The notes below the pieces were generated by a model that worked only from the letters and a program-made list of their open reading frames with translations, had not been told where the DNA came from and did not search any database. From Candidatus Iainarchaeum sp. (GTDB taxonomy: Archaea; Iainarchaeota; Iainarchaeia; JAGGVJ01), in assembly GCA_021158055.1 (NCBI GenBank), contig JAGGVJ010000012.1:1-5541 (forward strand): 5,541 nt of DNA. The letters are read 5' to 3'. Shown piece after piece: positions 1 to 5,541 of the stretch. Numbering within the stretch: position 1 is the stretch's first letter; each line of letters opens with the position of its first letter. The translations under genes and the position numbers were made by a program.

Positions 1-1755
1 GACTGGGCAAAAGCAAGGTTCAGGGACTGGATCAACTCGCTCGGGGACTGGCCCGTGTCAAGGCAAAGGTACTGGGGAATCCCTCTTCCGATCTGGAAAT
101 GCAAATCATGCGAAAACATAAAAGTTCTTGGTTCGTCAAAAGAGCTGGGGGTTGAGATAAGCGACCTGCACAGGCCGTTCATTGACGAAGTAGAGCTTGA
201 GTGCAAATGCGGCTCAAAAATGAAAAGGATTCCCGATGTCCTAGACGTGTGGTTTGACTCAGGAGTCGCTTCGTGGGCTTCCCTGGGCTTTCCTGCAAAA
301 ACAAAGGAGTTTGAAAGGATGTGGCCCGCAGACCTCAACATCGAAGGAGCGGACCAGTTCCGGGGCTGGTGGAACTCGGAGCTCATCGCAAGCGTGTTGA
401 CTTTCGGCAAAAAGCCATTCAAGAACATATTGTTTCACGGGATGGTCCTAGACGTTCACGGGAACAAGTTTTCAAAAAGCAAACAAATAGGGGTTGCACC
501 GGACGAAGTGATTGAAAAATACGGCCGGGACGCAATGAGGCTCTATTTGCTTGCGGCGCCTCCTGAAGCCGACTTTTTCTTTGACTTTGAAGTGCTTGAC
601 GAGTCAATGAAAGCGCTCAACATCTTGTTCAACTCAAAAAACTTCATTGAAAGCTACTGCGAAAAAGTAGGCGAGGACCAGGTTGATTCGCTTGAATTCA
701 GGCCTGAAGACACGTGGATAATCAGCAGGGCAAATTCGCTGATCAAGGATTGCACGAAGTTCAATTCAGAGTACGTGGGTTTCAGGTCAGTGAACGCAAT
801 AAAGGACTTCTTGGTAAACGACTTTTCAAGGTGGTACATAAAACTCATAAGAGAAAGGACCAGGCCCACTTACGCCGGGAAAGACAAGCTTGCTGCAAGT
901 TACGCTGCAAGGTTCGCCCTTGACGCGGTGGTGCGGCTTCTTGCTCCCATCACCCCTTATTCAAGCGAAGAGCTTTTTGAAAGGAAAAAAGGCGAGGAAA
1001 ACTCCGTTCACTTGACTGGCTGGATTGCTGCAGACAAATCAGCCATAAACAAGAATCTTGAAGAAAAAATGCAGGCAGTCATGAACCTGACTGAATCGGT
1101 TCTGTTCCTGAGGCAGGAAGCATCAATCAGGTTAAGGCACCCTGTCAAAAAAATCACTGTGAGCGGAAAGCAGGTCTTGGTTGACGCAACAAGCGAATTT
1201 GAGGACCTGATCAAAAAATCCTGCAACTGCAAGGAAATTAAAGTTTCAAAAGAAGCCAACGTTGAAATAAGCGTAAAGCCGAACTATTCAGTGCTTGGGC
1301 CAAAATTTGGAAAAGAAGTCGGTCAGATCGCGCAGTTGATTGCAAAAGCAAACCCCCTTGAAGTAAAAGAACAGCTTGAATCAAAAGGAATCGCCGTATT
1401 TGACAGGTTTGAACTTGAACCGGATATGTTGTTGTTGAAAGAAAACGTTCCTGAAGGCAAAACGGGTAAAACCTTTGCTGAAGGAGTGGTTTTCCTTGAC
1501 ACTGAAAGAACACCCGAGCTTGTAGAGGAAAGCATGATTCGCGAATTGATCAGGACAATCCAGATAATGCGAAAAGACAATGACAAAAATCCAACTGAAA
1601 CAGTTGAAATTTTCCTTGAGCAGACCCCTGTTCTATCCAAATGGAAAAACGAAATAGAGTCGCAGACAAACTCAAAGGTTTCCTGGGGCGCAGGCAAAGC
1701 GTCGGCGAAAAAAGAATTCAAGTTTGAAGAGCATAGGCTGACAATCGGAATCTGA
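1..1755 (+). CDS. ileS: Isoleucyl-tRNA synthetase, C-terminal part (5' end outside window)
   Basis: This cytoplasmic class I synthetase charges tRNA-Ile with isoleucine. Frame 1 is open from the first base, so the GTG at 55 is internal (GDWPVSRQRYWG) and not a start. About 584 residues are visible; archaeal IleRS is usually about 1000 or more, so the HIGH motif and most of the editing domain lie to the left. In fragment numbering, a zinc-knuckle pattern C34-x2-C37 and C68-x-C70 follows SRQRYWGIPLPIW. DVWFDSGVASWASLG near residues 82-96 is typical of archaeal/eukaryotic IleRS. The KMSKS loop reads K156-F-S-K-S160. An anticodon-binding helical domain spans roughly 190-370, and the C-terminal IleRS domain (KPNYSVLGPKFGKEV, then VFLDTERTPELVEESMIRELIR) runs to the end. 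The related ValRS is less likely because of the zinc knuckle and this C-terminal domain. The last codons and stop lie inside a direct repeat. Confidence 0.95.
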   Translation, partial: DWAKARFRDWINSLGDWPVSRQRYWGIPLPIWKCKSCENIKVLGSSKELGVEISDLHRPFIDEVELECKCGSKMKRIPDVLDVWFDSGVASWASLGFPAKTKEFERMWPADLNIEGADQFRGWWNSELIASVLTFGKKPFKNILFHGMVLDVHGNKFSKSKQIGVAPDEVIEKYGRDAMRLYLLAAPPEADFFFDFEVLDESMKALNILFNSKNFIESYCEKVGEDQVDSLEFRPEDTWIISRANSLIKDCTKFNSEYVGFRSVNAIKDFLVNDFSRWYIKLIRERTRPTYAGKDKLAASYAARFALDAVVRLLAPITPYSSEELFERKKGEENSVHLTGWIAADKSAINKNLEEKMQAVMNLTESVLFLRQEASIRLRHPVKKITVSGKQVLVDATSEFEDLIKKSCNCKEIKVSKEANVEISVKPNYSVLGPKFGKEVGQIAQLIAKANPLEVKEQLESKGIAVFDRFELEPDMLLLKENVPEGKTGKTFAEGVVFLDTERTPELVEESMIRELIRTIQIMRKDNDKNPTETVEIFLEQTPVLSKWKNEIESQTNSKVSWGAGKASAKKEFKFEEHRLTIGI

Positions 1756-1789
1756 CCACCGGAAACTGAAAAACAAACTTTATAAGACA
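1721..1789 (+). repeat. Direct repeat, left copy (ileS 3' end plus promoter)
   Basis: This is the left copy of a direct repeat whose right copy is 3057-3125, offset exactly 1336 bases with no indel. Bases 1747-1789 match 3083-3125 at 39 of 43 positions. The weaker left part, 1721-1746, matches at 15 of 26. The copy covers the last ten sense codons of ileS, its TGA stop, a short spacer and an archaeal TATA box. Similarity stops abruptly at 1789. Alignment was by eye. Confidence 0.85.
1779..1786 (+). promoter_or_regulatory. Orphan archaeal TATA box (TTTATAAG)
   Basis: TTTATAAG lies after a purine-rich stretch (CTGAAAAACAAAC) that could act as a BRE. It is identical to the TATA box of the radical SAM gene in the other repeat copy. 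A transcript starting about 26 bases downstream, near 1808-1812, would have no gene to read: it would run antisense into the 3' end of the convergent phosphatase gene. The only nearby ORF on this strand is ten codons (1794-1826). It is probably a duplicated promoter that lost its gene; activity is unknown. Confidence 0.5.
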
Positions 1790-1809
1790 TGTCATGGAAA
1801 AGGACATTT

Positions 1810-2982
1810 TCAGCAGTCTGCAATAATTAAAGGGACAATCATTTCATCATCGCTTACCCCGCCGTGTTTTCCTTTATGGAATTTGTCTGCTTTCTCATAA
1901 TTTGCAAGTTTATTCCTTAAAATGTAGTTTTTTTTCATAATCAAAATATAGTCTCCAACCCTGTCTGCCAGTTTTTTGTTTGGTTTTCCCAGCCCATACA
2001 GGTTATCCCTGATCAGCTGTTCTCCTTTATAGCACCAGCAATATCCGGAGAGTTCTGTTTTTACGATTTCTTCAAAATCTTTTGCCTTGCCTGGCCTGAC
2101 AAAGCAGTCTCTGACCCTTGACTCCCCTGCAAGGGGAATCGTCAGGCATTCTTTCAGCCCCTTTATGTCTTCAATCCATATTTCTGTCTCTTCTGAAGCA
2201 TCTGTAAACCCGTGGTCAGCTGTGATCATCAATCTTGTGCCGGTTCCTTTAATCGATTCTGATAAGTCTTTTATTTTTTTGTCCAGTTCCCAAAATATCT
2301 CATTGACTTCCTTGCTGCCTATGCCTTCTTTATGGGCCAGGGAATCTAATTCAGGAAGGTAAACATGAATAAACCTTTTTTTACCGGATTTTCTTTTAAT
2401 CAGCTTTTCCAATTTTGTAAGAGCGTCGTTGAAGGAGCTTGTGGAGATTACTTCTGTGTCTCCAGACACATATTTTGTAAAGGGTGTGTCAGACAGTTCT
2501 TTGTCGATCAAAGTAAAGCATTTGCCTTTGAAACCATCATGAAAAGAGCTTATATCCATAATTTTGTCCATTTCAAATTTTGATTTTGATAAAGATTCCC
2601 CTCCAAATAGAGGAACAAAAGGCATAATCGTGGTAATTGCGCCGATTTCTTTAAGGTTCATGTCCCAGCCGGTAAGCGCATGCTGTTGAGGGGGATAACC
2701 CACTGAAAAAACAGTATTTGCACAGGCGGTGGTTGATAAAAAAGTTGAAGTCATACTTGATTTAAGATTATCCAGCAAAAAAGAATCTTTTTGTTTTTTC
2801 AGATAATTATGCCCCAGCCCGTCTATGACAATCAGGACAATGTTTTTAAATTTTTTCAGCTCACCGGGTCTTAAATAAGAGAGCTCCACATACTTATGTT
2901 TTTTTCCAAAACTATCTGCAATAGAACTCATCAGGTTGACGATGCTTTTCCCTTTGTAATCAGGCAATGTAAAATGATACAT
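1810..2982 (-). CDS. Alkaline phosphatase superfamily phosphodiesterase/nucleotide pyrophosphatase-like protein
   Basis: This is a predicted two-metal hydrolase of phosphate mono- or diesters, 390 residues, of the type I phosphodiesterase/nucleotide pyrophosphatase group (PF01663-like). All expected metal ligands can be placed in order: D54 in VIDGLG, the nucleophile T84 or T85 in LSTTACAN, D213 and H217 in PELDSLAH, D256-H257 in TADHGF, and H373 in KGKHGGVSDDEMIVPL. H101 in QQHALTGW matches the family's PxxHGxxGW pattern. No signal peptide or membrane segment is visible, so it is probably cytoplasmic; the substrate cannot be told. The ATG at 2982 is preferred because a TATA box sits about 27 bases upstream, which implies a leaderless mRNA, and there is no ribosome binding site. 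The gene is convergent with ileS and divergent from the radical SAM gene. It is more AT-rich than both and favours GAT, TTT, TAT and ATT codons, which with the flanking repeat suggests acquisition. Confidence 0.88.
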   Translation of the reverse strand: MYHFTLPDYKGKSIVNLMSSIADSFGKKHKYVELSYLRPGELKKFKNIVLIVIDGLGHNYLKKQKDSFLLDNLKSSMTSTFLSTTACANTVFSVGYPPQQHALTGWDMNLKEIGAITTIMPFVPLFGGESLSKSKFEMDKIMDISSFHDGFKGKCFTLIDKELSDTPFTKYVSGDTEVISTSSFNDALTKLEKLIKRKSGKKRFIHVYLPELDSLAHKEGIGSKEVNEIFWELDKKIKDLSESIKGTGTRLMITADHGFTDASEETEIWIEDIKGLKECLTIPLAGESRVRDCFVRPGKAKDFEEIVKTELSGYCWCYKGEQLIRDNLYGLGKPNKKLADRVGDYILIMKKNYILRNKLANYEKADKFHKGKHGGVSDDEMIVPLIIADC

Positions 2983-3005
2983 AACAAGTAAAAAGGAATC
3001 GTTCT

Positions 3006-3013
3006 TTTTATAA
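3006..3013 (-). promoter_or_regulatory. TATA box for the phosphatase gene (leaderless)
   Basis: On the minus strand this reads TTATAAAA within CATTATAAAAAGAAC. Its centre is about 27 bases from the A of the ATG at 2982, the normal archaeal TATA-to-start-site distance. Transcription would therefore begin at or within a base or two of the start codon, and no Shine-Dalgarno sequence precedes the ATG. The stretch 3014-3056 further upstream shows no recognisable element. Confidence 0.65.
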
Positions 3014-3059
3014 TGTTTTTACTTTTTTATCCATAATCACCCATAGCACCCCACAAAGT

Positions 3060-3080
3060 TTTTCAGGCAATAACTGAAAA
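3060..3080. other. Small inverted repeat between divergent promoters
   Basis: TTTTCAG (3060-3066) and CTGAAAA (3074-3080) form a perfect 7-base inverted repeat around a 7-base spacer. A third CTGAAAA occurs at 3102-3108, just before the radical SAM TATA box. The site lies between the two divergent TATA boxes and could be an operator or a weak hairpin. The ileS copy of the repeat lacks the left arm and the 3074-3080 arm, so the palindrome arose only in this copy. AT-rich 7-mers can occur by chance. Confidence 0.3.
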
Positions 3081-3114
3081 TTGGAATCTAATCACCGGAA
3101 CCTGAAAAACAAGC

Positions 3115-3122
3115 TTTATAAG
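3115..3122 (+). promoter_or_regulatory. TATA box for the radical SAM gene (leaderless, GTG start)
   Basis: TTTATAAG is centred about 26 bases before the GTG at 3144, with a purine-rich CTGAAAAACAAG upstream as a possible BRE. The spacing puts the transcription start on or next to that GTG. This decides the start of the gene, because protein homology to Rossmann-type domains (ADILLVNSWG) also begins there. The element is shared with the direct-repeat copy beside ileS. Confidence 0.65.
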
Positions 3123-3143
3123 ACACTGGGCAAATCTTACTAT

Positions 3144-4856
3144 GTGGCGGATATACTGCTTGTCAACAGCTGGGGGACCTCCCCGAAAGCTTCACATATT
3201 GTGACCCTTCATGAAAAAGAAGACCTAGTGAAAACTTTCCCGTTAAGCTTGTTTTACCTCGCGTCTGCCCTGGAAAAAACCGACACCATCAAAATACTTG
3301 ACCCGAACCTGTACAGGGATTTTTCCGTTCTCAAAAAAGACCTGGCAAGACACGCACGCAAAGCTGACTGCATCGGATTTACAACATTCCAGGACACTAT
3401 TTCCGCGGATTTTGAACTGATGAACTTGTGCGCCATGCACAACCCCAAGATTTTTATCGGGGGCTGGGGCTCTGAAACCATAAACGATTATCTGAAGTAT
3501 TCCCCTGCAGTGGTTTCCATGGAAGGGCTTCACGGGGAAGCCCTGTCAACCGTAAAGGAATTGATCCCTGTTTTGGCCGACTCAAAAGTCAGGCGAAAGC
3601 CGACCAAAATCTTAAAGGAATTGCCGGATGAGTTTATGGAATTCAAGCACAGCGAAGCAAAAGAAAAAATCAGTGAAATCAAATCGTCTGCAGATGAAAA
3701 AAATAAAAAACATGAAAAAAACATGAAAAATGAAAAACTGTTCACTTCCATTTCCGGATTCACTGAACCGGTATTGATCTGCGATTCATATTTTGAAGGC
3801 ACGGGCGCGTTGTCAAAAATAAAGGGAATATCCTATAAATGCGAAGACAGGATAAAAACGACTGCGCAAAGACTGCCGTCAAAATTAAAGCCATTCAACG
3901 CCGACATCAAAAAATTCGGCACAGATTACACAAGCAGAAGCAAAGGAGGGCGGGTTGACCTGCACGTGATACTCTCTGCCGCGGGATGCCCTTACTCGTT
4001 CAAAAAAGAAGCGTGCCAATACTGCGGGATCCATTACCAGATATCAAGAAAAAGGAGTGTTTTGGGCAGTGATTTTGAAAGATTCAGAAAGACCGCGAAT
4101 ACCCCTGATTTTAAAAGGGCATTGACTGAAATCAACGCAATGGTCAGGTTTTGCAGAAAGGAAAAATGTGAAATTTCCAGCTTGAGCATCTGCGACGACT
4201 CCATGCAGTTCAATGACTTCAAAAAGCTGGCTGAAGAGCTGGACAAATCAGGGTTGAAGGACTTGAAAATCTGGTTCCAGACAAGGCCTGAACTGCTGCA
4301 CAGGGAGTGGCTGGATTATCTCAATTTAACCCCGAAAAGATTTATCGCTTGCGTGGGCATTGAATTTTCCAACGACAAAGACATCGAAACCACCATGAGA
4401 GCCGAAGACATAGGGCTGTACAGAAAAAACAGCGAACAGGCAATAGATTTTTCAGTCAGGAACAATCTGTGCGTCAGATACTACGTGATATTCAAGGCGA
4501 CTTCAGTCTGGGAAAACATAAAATCCAACATTTTGGGAGCAATAGACCTGGCCAAAAAAGGATTGGTAGTGTACACCACACCTTTTTTATTTTCAAACTT
4601 CAGCAAGATCCCTGATGCAAAATCAGACTATTACACTCCGGTGGAATATTTCACAGGACTAAGGATTCCCCAGCAGTGGGGATTTAAGGACTGCGATGAA
4701 AAAGAATCAGTTAAGATTTACAGGGGACTGGAAAAAATATACGGCAATGAATCAAATTTCAAGAACATTGAATTCCAGGGAAACGAAATCAAAGCCAATG
4801 TCAAAACATTACTGGATGCAGTGAGCTCCAGGATCAAGGAATTAGAAAACCCATAA
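3144..4856 (+). CDS. Radical SAM protein with N-terminal cobalamin-binding-like domain
   Basis: This predicted 4Fe-4S enzyme would cleave S-adenosylmethionine to start radical chemistry; its substrate is unknown. The chosen GTG start gives 570 residues. Residues 1 to about 165 look like the Rossmann-type domain found before many radical SAM domains: ADILLVNSWG at the start, a central ADCIGFTTFQDT strand, IFIGGWGSE, then GLHGEALSTVKELI, resembling the usual GEGE-x-T motif. The DxHxxG cobalamin ligand is not seen, so B12 binding is doubtful. A lysine/glutamate-rich, probably coiled linker lies near 166-200, encoded by A-rich DNA with repeated ACATGAAAAA. The cluster motif is C282-x8-C291-x2-C294 (GCPYSFKKEACQYCGIHY), not the standard C-x3-C-x2-C. 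WFQTRPELLHREWL and CVGIEFSNDKDIE resemble the ESRPE and GIES barrel motifs of Elp3- and archaeosine-related radical SAM proteins. That is a distant resemblance and does not assign a function. Confidence 0.88.
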   Translation: MADILLVNSWGTSPKASHIVTLHEKEDLVKTFPLSLFYLASALEKTDTIKILDPNLYRDFSVLKKDLARHARKADCIGFTTFQDTISADFELMNLCAMHNPKIFIGGWGSETINDYLKYSPAVVSMEGLHGEALSTVKELIPVLADSKVRRKPTKILKELPDEFMEFKHSEAKEKISEIKSSADEKNKKHEKNMKNEKLFTSISGFTEPVLICDSYFEGTGALSKIKGISYKCEDRIKTTAQRLPSKLKPFNADIKKFGTDYTSRSKGGRVDLHVILSAAGCPYSFKKEACQYCGIHYQISRKRSVLGSDFERFRKTANTPDFKRALTEINAMVRFCRKEKCEISSLSICDDSMQFNDFKKLAEELDKSGLKDLKIWFQTRPELLHREWLDYLNLTPKRFIACVGIEFSNDKDIETTMRAEDIGLYRKNSEQAIDFSVRNNLCVRYYVIFKATSVWENIKSNILGAIDLAKKGLVVYTTPFLFSNFSKIPDAKSDYYTPVEYFTGLRIPQQWGFKDCDEKESVKIYRGLEKIYGNESNFKNIEFQGNEIKANVKTLLDAVSSRIKELENP

Positions 4857-4884
4857 ATTTTTTCATTCTTCTTTTATCCTTCTT
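4857..4884 (+). terminator. T-rich archaeal-type terminator
   Basis: Directly after the TAA stop of the radical SAM gene the plus strand is strongly T-rich (ATTTTTTCATTCTTCTTTTATCC and onward), with no hairpin. Runs of T are the usual archaeal termination signal. The convergent gene on the other strand ends at 4885, so this short gap would mainly serve the radical SAM transcript. Confidence 0.55.
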
Positions 4885-5541
4885 TCAATCTTTTTTGAAA
4901 AGCCGGATTATCCTCACTGCATCGTCAATGTGCATCGCAAGGTTTTCCGGTTTCACGCGCACCTGAGGGTTGTAGACGATTATTCCCGAGCCGTCGCATT
5001 CAACGCACACCGGCGAGGAATGGTTTTCAAAAAAGTGAAGTGTGTCGGGAATGAAAAGCCCTTTGACTGCCTCGATGTCCTTTCCCTTCAGGAAATACTT
5101 TTTTGAAAACCCGGGTTTGTTCCAAAGTCAATGTCATTGAAGCCGATCAATCCCGCTGCCTTGTGAAAAAAGTTTTCGCGCTCAAGGGTAAATGACGGGA
5201 GCGAACCGTTTATCTTCGAGTAAACGACTGTCTGCTGCCGCGTTGCCACCGAGCCGGCTGACCTGCCGCCGCCTCCCGAGTGTTCGGAGTAAGAGCAGTC
5301 AAACAAAGTGAACTTGATTCCGTCTCTGGTCCCTTGACCGCGTTTTTTGCGGTTTTTGAATACCCTCGCGTGAAAAGCCCAAAATTCAAAAAGACCCGCA
5401 AAAACCCTTTTTCCGGATTGCCTGAAAAACCAAAACCCAGTTTCCCTGACTCTTCACCTATCTGCCTTGTTCTTTTCCGCTCTCCTTTAACCGCGCGGAA
5501 TGCAAAAACAAAAAGAATACCCAGCGCCAATGCAAAAATAA
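4885..5541 (-). pseudogene. Membrane-anchored conserved protein of unknown function, broken by two frameshifts
   Basis: Joining three minus-strand frames gives one coherent protein of about 218 visible residues. Frame one (5541 to about 5333) holds a hydrophobic segment YFALALGILFVFAF, then a basic stretch and GEESGKLGFGF, FGLFTRGYSKTAKNAV. Frame two (about 5331 to 5109) reads TRDGIKFTLFDCSYSEHSGG, QQTVVYSKINGSLPSFTLE, ENFFHKAAGLIGFNDIDFG. Frame three (about 5106 to 4885) reads SKKYFLKGKDIEAVKGLFIP, HFFENHSSPVCVECDGSGII, ending IIRLFKKD. I recognise this order from uncharacterised bacterial proteins (anchor, F-DYxYTTG, QTVxxF, LPSFxLRPENxFHK, DIDF, FSKxYLLRG) but know no function. Both shifts fit one lost base: GGGG to GGG at 5331-5333 and TTTTT to TTTT at 5106-5109, written in gene sense. 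That suggests sequencing error or recent decay. Frame one is open to the window edge; a TTG at 5530 is a possible start, but the true start may lie outside. Confidence 0.75.

Follow-up and report, generated by a model that had tools for sequence, protein, structure and literature searches.

After a single crossover of the Campbell type, the inserted DNA is flanked by two direct copies of the shared homology. A further system with which the present locus can be compared is the dusA-specific islands, in which imperfect direct repeats also flank the insert and the element resupplies the end of the host gene, as appears to be the case here. The islands use sites of 19–28 bp, have a mean size of 42.6 kb, all carry an integrase, and target the 5′ end of the gene (PMC4482086). 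At the locus described here, the end of ileS and the promoter that follows it are present twice, on either side of one gene. This junction duplication is real, imperfect, and ordinary in kind, and it is probably old.

The window, that is, the whole stretch of DNA that was analysed, is one contig of 5541 bases (C17) from a 1.15-Mb genome, which was obtained solely through metagenome assembly, comprises 45 contigs, and is 95% complete. TATA promoters at about 29 bp upstream of start codons, together with sequence features of archaeal type, point to an archaeon. The window begins with the 3′ part of ileS, followed by a phosphodiesterase-family gene that is convergent to it, a radical SAM-like gene, and finally a fragment of a gene with frameshifts. 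Its features are as follows:

1–1755, plus strand: ileS, 3′ part, 584 codons (Pfam tRNA-synt_1 2.2e-51, Anticodon_1, DUF5915)
1738–1789, plus strand: left repeat copy, with the final five codons and the stop of ileS and an apparently orphan TATA promoter (TTTATA from 1779)
1790–3073, no strand: enclosed unique segment of 1284 bp, bounded by the two repeat copies
1810–2982, minus strand: intact gene of the type I phosphodiesterase / nucleotide pyrophosphatase family, 390 aa, convergent to ileS (PF01663 4.7e-21)
3008–3013, minus strand: phosphatase TATA box, TTATAA, 31 bp before its ATG, by position the gene's own promoter
3074–3125, plus strand: right repeat copy, with a relic of the ileS end (LKIGI-stop) and the putative radical SAM promoter (TTTATA at 3115)
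3144–4856, plus strand: gene of a radical SAM-like protein, 570 aa, weakly RaSEA-like (TIGR01210 9e-05, PF04055 E 0.045)

Both window ends share exact 127-base overlaps with the ends of other contigs, positions 1–127 with C26 (100%) and 5415–5541 with C32, which we take to indicate that the assembly graph, built with k=127, forks at these points. The 5′ part of ileS continues on C26, which encodes the N-terminal part of the protein. With the entire region lying between forks, strain variants may be present; no alternative assembly path was found in the bin. Misassembly at the repeat is unlikely, since the two copies differ at 6 of 52 positions. The gene fragment at 4881–5541 (minus strand) occupies all three reading frames and seems to be frameshifted near 5130 and 5330; either it is a pseudogene or the sequence contains errors. 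The end of the window falls within it, and C32 carries on. Upstream of ileS (L048, 1630–3485, minus strand) lies a gene for a fused radical SAM-SPASM-methyltransferase of 519 aa, adjoining a short SPASM-like fragment.

The direct repeat is 52 bp long and aligns 1738–1789 with 3074–3125 without gaps, with 46 of 52 positions identical (12% mismatches) and a longest exact run of 12 bp. The copies have the same orientation and are spaced 1336 bp apart. Their match scores 68 bits; when the window was dinucleotide-shuffled 100 times, the best score was 35.6 bits. The preliminary description had drawn a longer repeat, 1721–1789 with 3057–3125; the 52-bp part of it stands, whereas the left extension (1721–1737) is no better than chance, with 8 of 17 positions agreeing, a level that is reached by 5% of arbitrary register pairs. 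A gapped test of the flanks detected no homology above shuffles past the 52 bp on either side, and no repeats above shuffles were present between the inner edges of the enclosed segment.

The repeat had been said to include the end of ileS, its stop, and a promoter, and both copies bear this out. The left copy contains the ileS terminus, CTG ACA ATC GGA ATC TGA (L-T-I-G-I-stop), and the right copy contains CTG AAA ATT GGA ATC TAA (L-K-I-G-I-stop), the same five codons with one amino-acid change; in each, a TATA promoter follows. After the coding end both copies continue as ...CTGAAAAACAA(A/G)CTTTATAAGACA; two thirds of the repeat lies beyond the stop codon. At the repeat ileS is intact, with its frame preserved. 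The ileS end in the right copy is a relic because an in-frame stop precedes the five codons.

The distance of TATA-like hexamers before the start codon was profiled in 148 sampled genes of this genome, and a peak was seen in the −30 to −26 bin, with 11 matches versus 1–7 in the other bins. The TATA of the right copy starts 29 bp upstream of the radical SAM GTG at 3144, which is the peak distance of the genome, and by this position the right promoter would serve the radical SAM gene. Approximately 29 bp past the left TATA, only ORFs of 5–18 codons are found. Because no start codon lies at the usual distance, the left promoter, judged in the same way, looks like an orphan directed at the 3′ terminus of the phosphatase gene. 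The repeat is a junction native to the site, consisting of a coding end and a promoter that, by position, has a gene to serve in the right copy and none in the left. Since coding codons and a stop are included, it is not a mere convergence of promoters.

In a search of the whole 1.15-Mb genome, no match other than the second copy was strongly significant (E 3.5e-13 for that copy), and the next-best one covered 27 bases (E 0.004). With up to three mismatches allowed, the core pattern matched at two genome sites only, which are the two repeat copies. The search for further copies proposed in the preliminary description thus confines the junction to these two places, and occurrence of the core at many unrelated promoters, which had been named there as a possible objection, is excluded. 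A general promoter motif was likewise rejected as an identity of the core, given that the genome holds no further copies. Two partial core matches were inspected and gave no support; the first falls within a reading frame of ABC-transporter type and the second in unannotated AT-rich sequence. No RNA structure was detected in the left copy (z 0.76), and Rfam returned no match.

Among the repeats inspected in a 269-kb sample of the genome, none was of the gene end plus promoter kind; they were tRNA-like, IS-like, gene-family, or low-complexity repeats. Two pairs (C33:7199–7268 and 34067–34136, L053 and L054; C12:652–730 and 1543–1621, L065) have the look of IS200/IS605-type right ends (GGAAGCCCCACCC...GGGTGGGGTAGTTCAC), and one C12 copy lies just beyond the point where a TnpB-like gene ends (PF07282 match, C12:1728–1922). 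Two near-identical tRNA-like sequences (94%; C33:32099–32207 and 36443–36548, L054) carry an unusual insert (GAGGAATTTTTTTCCGGCTAAAG region) and are possibly tRNA genes with an intron or an odd D-loop.

The PF01663 match of the enclosed gene is over the cut-off and full length, spanning residues 49–374 of the 390-aa protein. Near full-length relatives with 22–26% identity occur in Thermomicrobium and actinobacterial plasmid records, and no sequence relative was found among solved structures at E ≤ 0.001. The gene had been called AT-rich, which holds only by comparison with its neighbours: its GC content of 38.5% ranks at the 9th percentile among 152 sampled genes, and it has ordinary codon usage. 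A foreign composition of the cassette was rejected, as the GC content, though low, falls inside the genome's range and is not an outlier.

Both profile matches of the radical SAM gene are under the cut-off, TIGR01210 well below it. Neither this gene nor the phosphatase had a match in PHROGs or in viral contigs. An imperfect inverted repeat (3058–3080 / 5409–5430), 14 bases of which are exact (GTTTTTCAGGCAAT), encloses the radical SAM gene; in one of eight tests its score exceeded that of every one of 300 simple shuffles, and its second arm lies at the right fork.

The comparison set consisted of the other 86 genomes of the phylum, none of which is closer than the same class. Neither the phosphatase nor the radical SAM gene was found in them at E ≤ 1e-8. 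Looser searches gave one partial match for the phosphatase (3.4e-4; E ≤ 0.001, 54 of the 86 genomes) and one weak match for the radical SAM gene (1.1e-5). The best ileS matches in relatives are mostly 42–51% identical, and the gene after ileS differs between families at the ileS loci examined. No empty site is visible because both genes are absent from these genomes at the stricter threshold.

We infer that the ancestral order was ileS followed by a short junction with the radical SAM promoter. A donor, circular or concatenated, would have carried a diverged version of the junction (about 88% identity) besides the phosphatase gene and the promoter belonging to that gene. One crossover with the chromosome inside the junction, homologous or micro-homologous, would have left a junction copy on each side, the left completing ileS, with a promoter that drives nothing sensible, and the right driving the radical SAM gene. 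That the segment was inserted at the ileS–promoter–radical SAM junction by such a crossover, which duplicated the junction, seems to us the best of the readings, at about even odds. A single crossover with a diverged junction copy fits because the repeat holds a gene end and a promoter, each of which is used in one copy. It is further favoured by the 46 of 52 match that occurs nowhere else in the genome, a right TATA that is apparently used and a left one without a gene, the phosphatase TATA at −31, and the absence of the phosphatase from the 86 genomes at E ≤ 1e-8. Against it, no relative shows an empty site, the radical SAM gene is likewise absent from those genomes at this threshold, so phylogeny does not polarise which gene is the newcomer, the composition of the phosphatase is not foreign, and 52 bp of homology with 12% mismatches and a longest run of 12 bp is short for ordinary homologous recombination. 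The earlier proposal of a cassette inserted at the ileS end agrees with the anatomy (orphan left promoter, right promoter at the correct distance, intact ileS, a promoter for the phosphatase), but its integrative-element part is not supported.

The outcome of a single crossover would look no different from that of an integrase whose attachment site is the end of ileS. In the latter case the locus would be the remnant of an integrative element, with the repeats as attL and attR, an element-borne left copy that restored ileS, and loss of the integrase and everything but the phosphatase. Direct repeats at both borders, the intact ileS, and the location, which is the 3′ terminus of an essential gene whose frame is preserved, are consistent with this, and imperfect att repeats of roughly 20–30 bp are known at protein genes (dusA islands, PMC4482086). 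However, no recombinase or integrase gene is present in the window, as had been noted before; the sole tyrosine recombinase found genome-wide is a 272-aa Xer-like protein on contig C21 that adjoins an alaS-like ORF, no serine recombinase was found in the genome, and viral contigs contain no exact copy of the core. That two thirds of the repeat lies past the stop codon and that a single gene remains also speak against a remnant, which we hold to be unlikely. Literature searches on attachment sites at ileS returned nothing pertinent. As the agent, homologous recombination is no less likely than an integrase. That this archaeal lineage has a small site-specific system for inserting single genes at the end of ileS, served by a recombinase acting from another place in the genome (the Xer-like protein, for instance), is highly improbable.

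Recombination that duplicates part of the chromosome is well attested in bacteria (PMC3784515), and the direct orientation and small spacing (1336 bp) would suit a tandem duplication of the junction and part of the radical SAM gene, with the gene of the first copy lost and replaced by the phosphatase. This route requires more steps, and no radical SAM trace follows the left copy and no ileS trace precedes the right one, which makes it distinctly unlikely. The radical SAM gene may instead have been the newcomer, having brought the right copy from a related genome where ileS was adjacent and landed by an ileS–phosphatase pair; its own absence from the 86 genomes accords with such an arrival, but the complete geneless promoter of the left copy would be left unexplained, and we judge this improbable.

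By itself, the locus reveals no new mobile element. It is a clear small example, from a poorly sampled archaeal phylum, of the way in which a gene can be slipped between neighbours with neither broken, the junction being doubled and each neighbour keeping its own end or promoter. Unlike the dusA islands, it has a repeat of 52 bp, a length of 1.3 kb, one gene, no integrase, and a 3′ end as its location. As in Campbell-type or homology-facilitated insertion of foreign DNA, a direct repeat of shared homology lies on both sides, but in this case the stretch in common is very short and has diverged by 12%.
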